DNA from: Flavobacteriia bacterium
GTDB lineage: Bacteria > Bacteroidota > Bacteroidia > Flavobacteriales > Flavobacteriaceae
Length of the DNA: 10,467 nt
Reading direction: 5' to 3'
Assembly (NCBI GenBank): GCA_011330545.1
Contig: DRQI01000383.1
Location: forward strand, 1-10,467
In this document: positions 1,888 to 10,467 of the stretch, in pieces
Layout: each line of letters begins with the position of its first letter
How positions within the stretch are numbered: position 1 is the first letter of the stretch
Notes under the pieces: generated by a model
Databases searched by the model: none
Seen by the model: the letters and a program-made list of their open reading frames with translations, nothing else
What the model was told of the DNA's origin: nothing
Translations under genes and position numbers: made by a program

Positions 1888-3072
1888 TCAGTTTTTTATA
1901 ACTTTAAACGAGCCGTTGGCATTGCCAATAGTAACGCGTACGTAATAGGTGCCGGCGGGCAAATTAGACATGTCTAGTTCAGCGCTCAAATCTAACGATT
2001 GTGTAAGCCTTTTTACTTCTCTTCCTAAGATGGTATACAAACTCACTTGGTCTATCGATTCATTGGCATTCATTTTTAACGTATTTTCAACCGGATTCGG
2101 AAAGTAATAAAATCCTTTGGCAACGATATCGTCTATCGATAAGAAATCGGTTGTTGCTGACAGGGTAAAAACGCCTTCGGGTTCATCATTAGTACCACTT
2201 GGGTATCCAATATTTATATAATATGTTTTATTCAAAGTAGAGGTAAAAGCTACGGCTTCTACAAAGCCCGAAGCTCCCACATTACTATCGCCTACACAGG
2301 TAAGGGCACCGCAACTTCCTTCATAAACACCTATGGCGGCATCCCATGCGTCGGGCGTAACGGTAATGGTAATTTTCCCACCGTCACCTACTACGGTATA
2401 CCAAACGCCGTCATTCAAATCCATACAACCCGCACTTGTAATAAAACCGGCGTTGTTGGTTGCTGAGGTAGCATCCATTGAGCTGTTAAATGGCAAATTG
2501 GTAATTGCTAATGCATTTGCACAATCATCATTGGAAGGTGTCGTTGGTGTTGAACCTACACAGATATCAAAAGTAGTATCTGCCCCTGATGCTGGCGAAT
2601 CGGTAAAAACACTTATAAAATACGTGTTTCCAACGGTAAGGCCTGTTGGGGTTCCCGGATTGGTACTTCCACAAAAAATGCCTGTCATGGTAGCACAATC
2701 ACCGGTTGCACCGCCGTCAAATACCATATAGTACATATTTGTTTGTGAGCCGGCAATATTTAATAATTCAATTTTATGAGAAGTGTCTGTAGCCACAAAT
2801 TTATACCAAACATCATCATTGGCATTTGCCGGAGTACCGGGGCATCCGCTTACCACACCTGAGGCTGTAGCTTCAGCAACAGTTCCTGATGTTGTATTGG
2901 TACATAAAAAATCACTGTTTACGGTCAATGCAATGGCATTGGCACAATCATCATTGGGCGGAGCAGCTACTATATCTACATTTTTTTTTCCTTTACTTAT
3001 AAGGGCATTTGCATGCCATACAAACGGAAAGAAAAACAAGAGCAAAAGACCAATGGTAGCTTTTCTTTTCAT
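1888..3072 (-). CDS. Secreted protein with type IX secretion C-terminal sorting domain and two NDDCANA domains
   Basis: This is an exported protein of unknown function. Residues 1-23 form a signal peptide (KRK, a long hydrophobic core, then a likely cut after ANA). Two related domains follow, each opening with PxNDDCANA: about 38-173 and 178-308. Both keep a DDVWYKF/DGVWYTV strand and a YFISVF/YYINIG strand, suggesting beta-sandwich modules. The second has DAAIGVYEGSCG and CVGDSNVGASG, wording I associate with Bacteroidota surface proteins. The last 75 residues (about 320-394) are a type A T9SS sorting domain: FPNPVENTL, VSLYTILGREV, LDMSNLPAGTYYVRV, ending SFKVIKN. So it should cross the inner membrane by Sec and the outer membrane by T9SS, with the C-terminus removed. 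Paired cysteines may form disulfides. No catalytic motif is visible; binding or adhesion is a guess. An intrinsic terminator follows the stop codon. Confidence 0.92.
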   Translation of the reverse strand: MKRKATIGLLLLFFFPFVWHANALISKGKKNVDIVAAPPNDDCANAIALTVNSDFLCTNTTSGTVAEATASGVVSGCPGTPANANDDVWYKFVATDTSHKIELLNIAGSQTNMYYMVFDGGATGDCATMTGIFCGSTNPGTPTGLTVGNTYFISVFTDSPASGADTTFDICVGSTPTTPSNDDCANALAITNLPFNSSMDATSATNNAGFITSAGCMDLNDGVWYTVVGDGGKITITVTPDAWDAAIGVYEGSCGALTCVGDSNVGASGFVEAVAFTSTLNKTYYINIGYPSGTNDEPEGVFTLSATTDFLSIDDIVAKGFYYFPNPVENTLKMNANESIDQVSLYTILGREVKRLTQSLDLSAELDMSNLPAGTYYVRVTIGNANGSFKVIKN

Positions 3073-9269: not shown

Positions 9270-10151
9270 CTATGCTAGGTAGTTATCTACAAAGCCATGT
9301 ATTTTTTGCTGTAATTGTTTACTCGCTTCTACTAAAGGCAAACGGACAAAGGGTTCGCAAAGTTTTTTTTCTTTGAGCAGCGCTTTGATTCCGGCCGGAT
9401 TATTTTCTTCAAAAATTAAATTGATACAATCCATTAATTGATAATGAATTTGGTAGGCCTGTTTGGCTTTTCCTTCAATTCCGAGTCGAATCATAGTAGC
9501 GAATTCTTTTGGAAATGCTTGTCCGATTACCGAAATGACGCCTGCCCCTCCGGCAAGGACTACCCCAAGTACCAAATCGTCATCACCCGAAATGATTAAA
9601 AAATCATCGGGTTTATTTTTTATGAGTTGTAAATATTGGTGTACGCTATTGCCGGCTTCTTTAAGGGCAATAATATTGTCAAAATCTGATGCCAACCTAA
9701 AAACTGTTTCAGGACTTATATTTTTTGCTGTCCTTCCCGGAACATTATACAGTATTATCGGTTTCGGGCATACTTTTGCGATGGCACTAAAATGTTGATA
9801 AAACCCTTCTTGTGTAGGTTTGTTATAATATGGGGCAACAGACAAAATGGCGTCAAATGCCTTTAAATTAGCGGCATTAATTTCATCAATTACAGCTTGG
9901 GTACAATTTCCGCCTATGCCTAAAACCAACGGTAATTTGGCATTATTAACAGCTACAACGGCCTCTCTAACTTGTGCTCTTTCTTTTGCACTGAGCGTTG
10001 CCGGTTCACCCGTAGTACCTTGTACCACCAAATAATCAATACCATTGTCAATTTGGTAATTTACCAGTTTTTCTAAGGCATTATAATCTACTTTTCTATC
10101 TTCTGTAAACGGGGTAATTAATGCCACACCTGTTCCTACAAACTGCTCCAC
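9270..10151 (-). CDS. dapA: 4-hydroxy-tetrahydrodipicolinate synthase DapA
   Basis: DapA condenses pyruvate with aspartate semialdehyde, the first committed step toward diaminopimelate and lysine. The 293-residue TIM-barrel aldolase has GTTGEPATLS (45-54) with T46/T47, PYYNKPTQEG (107-116) with Y109, YNVPGR (135-140) with Y135 and R140, and Schiff-base lysine K164 in ALKEAG; all expected catalytic residues are present. The residues that bind inhibitory lysine in E. coli (H56, E84) align without gaps to R58 and A86, so feedback control by lysine is probably weak or absent. The start is GTG at 10151: an in-frame TAA lies 12-15 bases upstream, no ATG precedes the conserved FVGTGVALITPF, and MEQFVGTG is the right N-terminus. 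It sits 149 bases before bamD and downstream of the hairpin cluster, with no exact promoter box found. Confidence 0.96.
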   Translation of the reverse strand: MEQFVGTGVALITPFTEDRKVDYNALEKLVNYQIDNGIDYLVVQGTTGEPATLSAKERAQVREAVVAVNNAKLPLVLGIGGNCTQAVIDEINAANLKAFDAILSVAPYYNKPTQEGFYQHFSAIAKVCPKPIILYNVPGRTAKNISPETVFRLASDFDNIIALKEAGNSVHQYLQLIKNKPDDFLIISGDDDLVLGVVLAGGAGVISVIGQAFPKEFATMIRLGIEGKAKQAYQIHYQLMDCINLIFEENNPAGIKALLKEKKLCEPFVRLPLVEASKQLQQKIHGFVDNYLA

Positions 10152-10199
10152 TAGTTTTAAAATTTATCAGTTAATAAAAAATTTCTTGAAACCAACTAT

Positions 10200-10220
10200 C
10201 CCCGAGGCAAGCCATAGGGG
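10200..10220. repeat. Hairpin copy A of a paired repeat (CCCC/GGGG type)
   Basis: CCCC (10200-10203) pairs with GGGG (10217-10220) around an inner GAGGCA-AGCC core. The outer TGAAACCA/TGGTTTCA pair encloses it, and on the minus strand the whole stem is followed within about 4 bases by a T run (TTTTTT), so it could also act as a terminator or attenuator in front of dapA. Confidence 0.55.
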
Positions 10221-10354
10221 TATTTCGCTGGTTTCATTTTGACCTTAGGGTCAAAAACCGAAATTTGGTATTTTACCTCACCCGAAACTGCAAAAGGCAG
10301 TTTCGACCCTGCCTACCGTCAGGCAGGCTCTCCCAAGGAGAGGTAAATCGGAAA

Positions 10355-10375
10355 CCTCGAGGCAGAGCCTAGAGG
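10355..10375. repeat. Hairpin copy B of a paired repeat (CCTC/GAGG type)
   Basis: CCTC (10355-10358) pairs with GAGG (10372-10375), and AGGC (10360-10363) with GCCT (10367-10370), leaving a 3-base loop. It shares a preceding GAAACC and the CGAGGCA and AGCC core with copy A, while the closing stem differs on both sides in a compensating way. Confidence 0.55.
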
Positions 10376-10410
10376 AATTCTTTTCGATTCGATATAGTTT
10401 AAATTAACTG

Positions 10411-10467
10411 TTAATCTTCAAATTCTTCTTTTAAAATACGTTGAACATCTAATATCGTTTCTTCTTC
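10411..10467 (-). CDS. C-terminal end of an unidentified protein (5' part outside the window)
   Basis: An open frame enters from the window edge and ends in TAA at 10411-10413, giving 18 residues ending in DVQRILKEEFED. The frame is in the same direction as all other genes here, and the acidic, helical tail looks like a natural protein end. Too little remains to name a family. Its stop lies 36 bases before the inverted-repeat cluster, so that cluster would form the 3' end of its message. Confidence 0.6.
   Translation of the reverse strand, partial: EEETILDVQRILKEEFED

Follow-up and report, generated by a model that had tools for sequence, protein, structure and literature searches.

The gap upstream of dapA (9273..10151, minus strand; TIGR00674) in the window, by which we mean the whole 10,467-nt stretch of flavobacterial DNA analyzed here, is crowded with hairpins, which raises the question of what kind of sequence they form. 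A preliminary description had placed a dense hairpin cluster at 10187-10375 and explained it either as a palindromic element built of modules, similar to a REP/BIME or a MITE, or as a structured RNA. We counted eight perfect inverted repeats (arms of at least 6 nt, loops of 3-40 nt) in 10187-10375, against 1.5 ± 1.2 in 200 dinucleotide shuffles of this interval, none of which reached eight. This count is not unique, because among 54 further 189-nt tiles taken from the window the richest has nine (mean 2.5), and it is a weaker sign than the preliminary description supposed. The stronger sign is the folding energy of 10180-10385, with z-scores of -4.9 (minus-strand RNA), -5.8 (plus-strand RNA) and -6.7 (plus-strand DNA), and with none of 200 shuffles folding as well for any of the three molecules. 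The hairpin density is real, and the earlier statement that GC is about double that of the flanks is fair: GC is 0.50 inside, 0.34 in the left 100 nt (mostly dapA), 0.14 in the 21 nt beside dapA and 0.23 to the right. The reported lack of coding content was borne out, as the cluster holds no ORF of 60 or more amino acids; no tRNA was found. Elsewhere in the window, 2966-3069 (plus strand) gives a weak match to the Rfam Phe_leader model (27.7 bits against a cut-off of 55) that is probably due to chance.

A dispersed, modular element with fixed ends

A search of the organism's own draft genome (544 contigs, 3.13 Mb, 86% complete) identified the cluster as a dispersed repeat with 17 full or partial places, the window's included, as well as one 23-nt inverted match. 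The places in the window and on contig C220 have a common right flank and may be one site. When aligned, the copies have sharp common ends and otherwise unrelated flanks, and many stop at contig ends. From a comparison of copies and empty sites (17 places in this genome and three empty sites in relatives), we set the ends of the element at 10173 and 10386, giving a length of 214 nt with the minus strand as the presumed transposing (top) strand. The interval first described lies within the element and misses both termini. The window copy differs from the copy on contig C221 at one of 214 positions. Among other copies whole hairpins vary, with a 20-nt hairpin, a 19-nt CCTGCC hairpin and a 23-nt insert each present or absent. 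In the C97 and C516 copies (L013, L019) a hairpin loop is inverted with respect to the other copies, as template switching would produce.

The window copy can be read as a series of parts. The segment beyond the first hairpin (10173..10199, minus strand; ...GAAATTTTTTATT) is the right end in the IS200 convention, and its last 13 nt are one strand of a helix, P1, whose inner strand (10260..10272; inverted repeat I5) pairs with the terminus at 10173-10185, 85% of it in this copy. Between these strands lie the subterminal hairpin H1 (10200..10220), equivalent to IP-R and similar to the right-end hairpin of insertion sequences (IS); helix P2, which encloses H1 (10187..10236, arms 10187-10194 and 10229-10236; inverted repeat I14); and hairpin H2, or helix P3 (10237..10256; inverted repeat I16). 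All three helices are marked by covariation. The core (10274..10346, minus strand) is a module of the Rfam family whalefall-1 (RF01762), interrupted by an optional 20-nt hairpin, CCTGCCTACCGTCAGGCAGG (10308..10327), which the alignment shows to be missing in some copies. The second subterminal hairpin, H4 (10355..10375), is equivalent to IP-L, resembles the IS left-end hairpin and is a direct repeat of H1 (D2, 72%). It is followed by the left end in the IS200 convention, CGAAAAGAATT (10376..10386, minus strand), and by a target-derived pentanucleotide (10387..10391, minus strand).

Related sequences, some partial, occur in nine of the 17 genomes of the genus, this one included. A covariance model of the left domain matched at least 24 of 299 genomes of the family Flavobacteriaceae, in at least 23 genera; 13 candidates were scored per genome, so these figures are lower bounds. 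A DNA pattern of one end found at least 114 stretches in named genomes, and the genera among the matches listed include Flavivirga, Snuella, Arenibacter, Maribacter, Polaribacter, Gramella, Lutibacter and Aquimarina. Searches of plasmid and phage collections gave no match. The impression in the preliminary description that similar hairpins occur elsewhere in Flavobacteriia thus holds for this family. Its proposal of a modular palindromic element also stands: the sequence is neither single-copy nor restricted to this genome, and its pairing is conserved (see below).

Among 184 distinct copies, 129 contain both ends, and of these 31 are 52-89 nt long, 95 are 149-302 nt and three fall between. 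The long form carries one hairpin twice, close to either terminus and directly repeated (H1 and H4), and the short form has a single hairpin region and both termini. Judged from the sequences, the short form would be the product expected from losing everything between the two direct repeats. At one Flavivirga site the element measures 237 nt in F. aquimarina and 123 nt in F. jejuensis, so change of size at a fixed site does occur. By sequence pattern, the cores of the 95 long copies are whalefall-1 in 52, an ATTCCCG hairpin in 31, both in eight and neither in four. Many copies (for example L170, L174, L154 and L157) have the alternative core GATTCCCGTTTTCACGGGAATGAC. Some have inserts such as TCCCGATAGCTATCGGGA inside H1, which resemble independent hairpin repeats nested in palindromes. 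No autonomous copy, with a gene between the element's own full ends, was seen among the copies listed.

Insertion sites and a candidate transposase

To identify empty sites, the joined flanks of eight Flavivirga sites were searched in six Flavivirga genomes. For three of the eight, a sister species has a continuous empty site, and the other five gave none that was readable. In all three readable pairs of occupied and empty sites the element lies directly 5' of ATTAA without target duplication; one pair is exact to the base, the second differs by one base, and in the third about 12 nt of left flank align uncleanly, both deviations being no larger than the flanks' own divergence. ATTAA also follows 61 of 67 distinct copies with the GAATTCTTTT-type right end, in a set whose right ends were defined without using the bases that follow. 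Beyond it, 84% have A as the sixth base, and composition is near background from position nine onward. Since insertion precedes ATTAA both at the empty sites and in these 61 copies, the conserved ATTAA belongs to the target and not to the element. The window copy is an exception, being followed by ATTCG. In minus-strand terms, TTAAT, which we infer to be the target, is found immediately 5' of the element, which has a hairpin near each end. Insertion beside a short conserved target on one strand, without duplication, is the style of the IS200/IS605 family.

As the element is dispersed, has fixed ends, inserts 5' of ATTAA without duplication, carries direct end hairpins and has IS200-like ends, it is very probable on this sequence evidence that the cluster represents a single copy of a transposable element of the IS200/IS605 type from marine flavobacteria, non-autonomous and of the palindrome-associated kind (PATE). 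It has four features of PATEs: no target duplication, near-terminal palindromes that are similar to each other, likeness of these palindromes to those of IS605-type transposons with a transposase, and too little length for a transposase gene. Two further features of PATEs are a lack of terminal inverted repeats, on which the weak similarity described next bears, and mobilization in trans by a Y1 transposase, for which a candidate is described below. A MITE of the classical kind, mobilized by a DDE enzyme, would likewise be short, non-coding and dispersed. The termini do have a weak inverted similarity, seen by eye over 13 nt (AATAAAGAATTTC versus CGAAAAGAATTCC), and 40-nt arms are 70% complementary. 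With target duplication absent at the three sites read, hairpins that are direct and not inverted repeats, and a fixed flanking ATTAA on one side only, we give this origin almost no weight. What holds of the preliminary REP/BIME- or MITE-like label is its description of a modular palindromic element, and an IS200/IS605-derived PATE fits more exactly than either a REP or a classical MITE.

We also examined how copies lie with respect to genes. For 113 copies that have both ends and sufficient flank, both neighbours run in the direction of the copy in 27 cases and against it in 26; 24 copies lie between genes that converge, 12 between genes that diverge, and the remaining 24 have no ORF on one side. 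Three overlap an ORF of at least 90 amino acids. Orientation to neighbouring genes is therefore unbiased over the 113 copies, as expected of a mobile element, and by this measure (27 with, 26 against) a cis-regulatory role gains no support. Short forms favour convergent gene pairs (13 of 25).

At the dapA locus, a comparison of the upstream gap in relatives found the element here and in none of the others: in all 15 other genus genomes with dapA, this gene follows a DUF6913 gene (the Pfam name for the C221 protein) by 0 to ~115 nt, and none of the 15 has the element between the two. In the window's own genome the DUF6913 gene is on C221, ~43 nt from the near-identical copy. In the window itself the copy links dapA with the 3' end of nusA (flank and gene end, 10392..10467, minus strand), which follows rimP on C220, and the last 81 nt of the contig (10387-10467) belong to the nusA 3' side. 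The window end held in common with C220 is exactly 140 nt, such as would be left by assembly with k = 141, and the dapA-nusA join is probably an assembly chimera through the repeat (window 10387-10467 and L009 659-1443). The simplest reading is a single insertion between DUF6913 and dapA together with a chimeric contig, and recombination between copies is a possible alternative origin of the join. Because the element ends 21 nt from the GTG start of dapA, we predict that it is probably co-transcribed with this gene.

A search for Y1 transposase genes under 12 genome handles, with G173 and G320 apparently the same genome, identified a candidate partner. Several IS200-type genes among 38 loci scanned are flanked by a hairpin and an end like those of the element, and in Flavivirga, Confluentibacter and Gramella the ends that enclose tnpA in IS200/IS605 insertion sequences are closely similar to the element's. 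In F. aquimarina, for example, tnpA is bounded by TTTAAT|CTAAAGAATTCCTCGAGGCTCTGCCTCGGGG and TACCTCGATGGCTCTGCCTCGGGGTAGTTCATT, and in Confluentibacter flavum one contig starts and another stops at apparent IS ends. Patterns that tolerated up to 11 edits were applied to 33 tnpA loci and matched the left end at 21 (14 with six edits or fewer) and the right end at 23. Scored by alignment against 2000 control windows, the left end ranked above all of them at 22 of the 30 tnpA loci that have upstream sequence; for the right end this was true of 23 of 31 loci with flank, and the rest include decayed genes. A blind line of evidence agrees: an earlier search with a 76-nt minimal element had matched IS left ends at six places in five genomes (G022, G052, G063, G067 and, twice, G152), 24-27 nt from tnpA matches found later. 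The encoded proteins are IS200/IS605 family transposases by NCBIfam and sequence relatives of 2xm3 and of the ISHp608 TnpA (2a6m). In one draw of 299 genomes, the tnpA clade was found in at least 16, the element in at least 24 and both in at least eight, against 1.3 expected (Fisher p 4e-6, in a test that ignores relatedness and with a limited number of candidates scored per genome in both searches).

Some findings stand against this reading. The window's own draft genome (86% complete) has no match at E 1e-30 to tnpA of the partner clade, nor have 16 of the 24 element-bearing genomes. G171 (one contig, 99% complete) has five element matches and no Y1 gene, so an enzyme of its own cannot now move its copies. 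With nine Y1 seeds, no IS200-type gene was found near the 114 element loci listed. Furthermore, the segment beyond H1 is 27 nt long in the element and 9 nt in the insertion sequences, and only its ends correspond. In the window's genus, copy-rich G011 has a decayed tnpA with a similar right-end hairpin (L067 203-590, C433). A second IS200 type of G000 and G008 (L025 on G000 C316; L058, L068 and L075) was aligned as a candidate partner and set aside; its ends differ, with end hairpins of the form ACCACCTGC..GCAGGTGG.

The same search with Y1 seeds bears on the proposal that the element is a REP/REPIN mobilized by a RAYT (REP-associated tyrosine transposase) instead of an IS200-type TnpA. RAYTs are Y1 enzymes that act on hairpins, as summarized in part of PMC6006769, and a RAYT-like gene on C463 does adjoin one element copy. 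This gene scores 43 bits against an NCBIfam RAYT cut-off of 80 and is at the Pfam Y1 cut-off. It has the element on one side only, where a REP/RAYT system would have copies flanking the gene, and it is flanked by a different repeat of its own (CCTGCAAGGTTT..AAACCTTGTAGG), as is its relative in G008. We had followed a RAYT as partner for this adjacency and set it aside on the gene's own repeat and on the presence of such a gene at only one of the 114 loci listed. As the ends of the element also resemble those of IS200 tnpA elements, mobilization by a RAYT is very unlikely. The gene and repeat on C463 (L015 1600-2370, G000) and in the G008 relative (L079) form a separate REP/RAYT pair in the genus.

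The internal junction and the whalefall-1 core

The left domain of the element folds as a three-way junction, in which P1 ties the terminus to the interior, P2 surrounds H1 and P3 forms the remaining arm. For the analysis of covariation, 15 of the 95 long copies were dropped as unlike the pattern of the inner P1 strand, leaving 80, and filters for length and 92% identity left 43. Six of these were dropped for length (inserts or missing parts) and four by name (L088, L168, L185 and L218, in which P1 or P3 is replaced or absent), leaving 33. In these 33 left domains, which are related and to some degree selected for the structure, 90.1% of cells in the junction are paired and 83 are changed on both sides, compared to 29.8 ± 3.9 in shuffles (0 of 500 as high); the preliminary description had named conserved pairing as a thing to look for, and here it is found. 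Sliding the partner strand gave 33-56% paired and at most 21 double-changed cells, and unconstrained RNAalifold predicted 24 pairs, parts of the same P1-P3 helices. Repair of hairpins by template switching, of which inverted loops are a sign, could mimic part of this covariation. None of 16 loci of tnpA-bearing elements that we searched has the P1-P3 domain.

Many copies have a core that matches RF01762, a family published in 2010, on the minus strand. The published account (PMC2864571) describes whalefall-1 as an RNA from a whale fall only, absent from sequenced cultivated organisms. One G011 copy scores 37.4 bits and the maximum in the genus is 42.1. The window copy, in which the 20-nt hairpin interrupts the motif, scores 18.3 bits and falls short of the 37-bit gathering threshold; the copy on C220, whose right flank is that of the window copy but which is without this hairpin, reaches 40.6. 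Across the family, RF01762 matches 15 of 299 genomes, two of them above the cut-off, and 17 of 41 family matches abut a P1-P3 match (0-2 nt). Three further matches (G000 C220, C372 and C455) lie in element copies cut by contig ends. We rejected a first idea, that whalefall-1 occurs solely as a component of the element, as all six of the other matches that we read (in G001, G002, G003, G005, G006 and G013) lack the P1-P3 domain at E 0.01; the G006 match keeps the element's right end. These six loci (L267, L270, L271, L273, L274 and L275) comprise five apparently stand-alone whalefall-1 sequences and, at L267, the one with the element's right end. Stand-alone whalefall-1 is possibly an independent small repeat with ACCTC/GAGGT ends.

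These data give partial hold to the structured-RNA alternative raised in the preliminary description, in which whalefall-1 and its surroundings would be a non-coding or cis-regulatory RNA family whose copies are selected as RNA. RF01762 exceeds its gathering score in five of 17 genus genomes, at some places outside the element, and covariation of the left domain is strong. In addition, the mismatches lean mildly to the minus strand, which is the whalefall-1 strand, with 39 plus-strand A-C mismatches (wobbles on the minus strand) against 22 G-U and 78 other mismatches. Against this reading stand the lack of orientation bias among 113 copies, the patchy presence with copy-rich genomes, insertion at empty sites, and the part of the covariation that template switching could mimic. 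An RNA function of whalefall-1 itself is possible, and selection of the element's copies as an RNA family seems to us extremely unlikely.

Proposed mechanism and relation to known systems

We propose that the element, as a PATE, would be acted on in trans by the Y1 (HUH) transposase of the tnpA insertion sequences, which would recognize H4 and H1 on the single-stranded minus strand and cut after TTAAT and at the TTTATT terminus. A single-stranded circle would then be excised and inserted 3' of a new TTAAT. Forms of 52-89 nt would be produced when the core is lost from between H1 and H4, the two direct-repeat hairpins, and the interior, comprising the three-way junction and an exchangeable core such as whalefall-1, may keep the ends in a usable fold or limit read-through transcription. 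A more specific version, which we consider unlikely, is that the interior evolved as a control fold absent from autonomous relatives, with P1 tying the cut end (TTTATT) to the interior. P1 would then rival an alternative pairing of this stretch with the right half, and the exchangeable core, the whalefall-1 hairpins included, would determine when the single-stranded element is ready for excision or serves as a transcript. If so, whalefall-1 would be a regulatory cassette of mobile elements, and neither an orphan RNA gene nor filler.

Assignment to the PATEs would give a kind, and a likely mobilizing enzyme, to a repeat of at least 23 Flavobacteriaceae genera, and would explain the orphan Rfam family whalefall-1 in large part as a mobile-DNA module. 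The natural series from autonomous IS through full PATE to 52-89-nt PATE offers a way to ask how little an IS200-type element needs for movement. Such repeats also break flavobacterial metagenome assemblies and may mis-join them. In the literature searched, mostly open papers, we found no report of the element and one open paper that names whalefall-1.

Among known systems, the IS200/IS605 insertion sequences, such as IS608 and another member of this family, ISDra2, are close to the element. Like them, it has subterminal hairpins and a short target on one strand that is not duplicated; it differs in having no gene and in a target, TTAAT, that is deduced from insertion sites. In this family, hairpins act with guide sequences, as outlined in part of PMC6006769. 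The REP/BIME and RAYT systems, as far as the sections drawn on describe them (PMC6006769, PMC3733652), resemble the element in their intergenic palindromes and Y1 transposases, and the element differs in showing no link to a RAYT gene. The whalefall-1 RNA, in the portion of PMC2864571 cited above, was published as a non-coding RNA of whale-fall samples, whereas here the motif, on the minus strand and forming the core of many copies, is an interspersed Flavobacteriaceae module found inside and outside the element. What is unusual in the element is the junction that ties the terminus to the interior, the 52-89-nt forms, the swappable hairpin modules and the whalefall-1 core. A close likeness is to the PATEs of Haloquadratum walsbyi, which, in the excerpts of PMC3119063 used here, have near-terminal IS605-like palindromes that are direct repeats, cause no target duplication, adjoin a conserved target oligonucleotide, are too short for a transposase, occur as ~52 bp terminal-only versions formed by core deletion, and have other small repeats inserted in their palindromes. 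The present element differs from these in being bacterial, from Flavobacteriaceae, and in its proposed partner, an IS200 type with tnpA; its new points with respect to the Haloquadratum PATEs, as those excerpts present them, are an internal junction that covaries, cores that can be exchanged and the identity given to whalefall-1.
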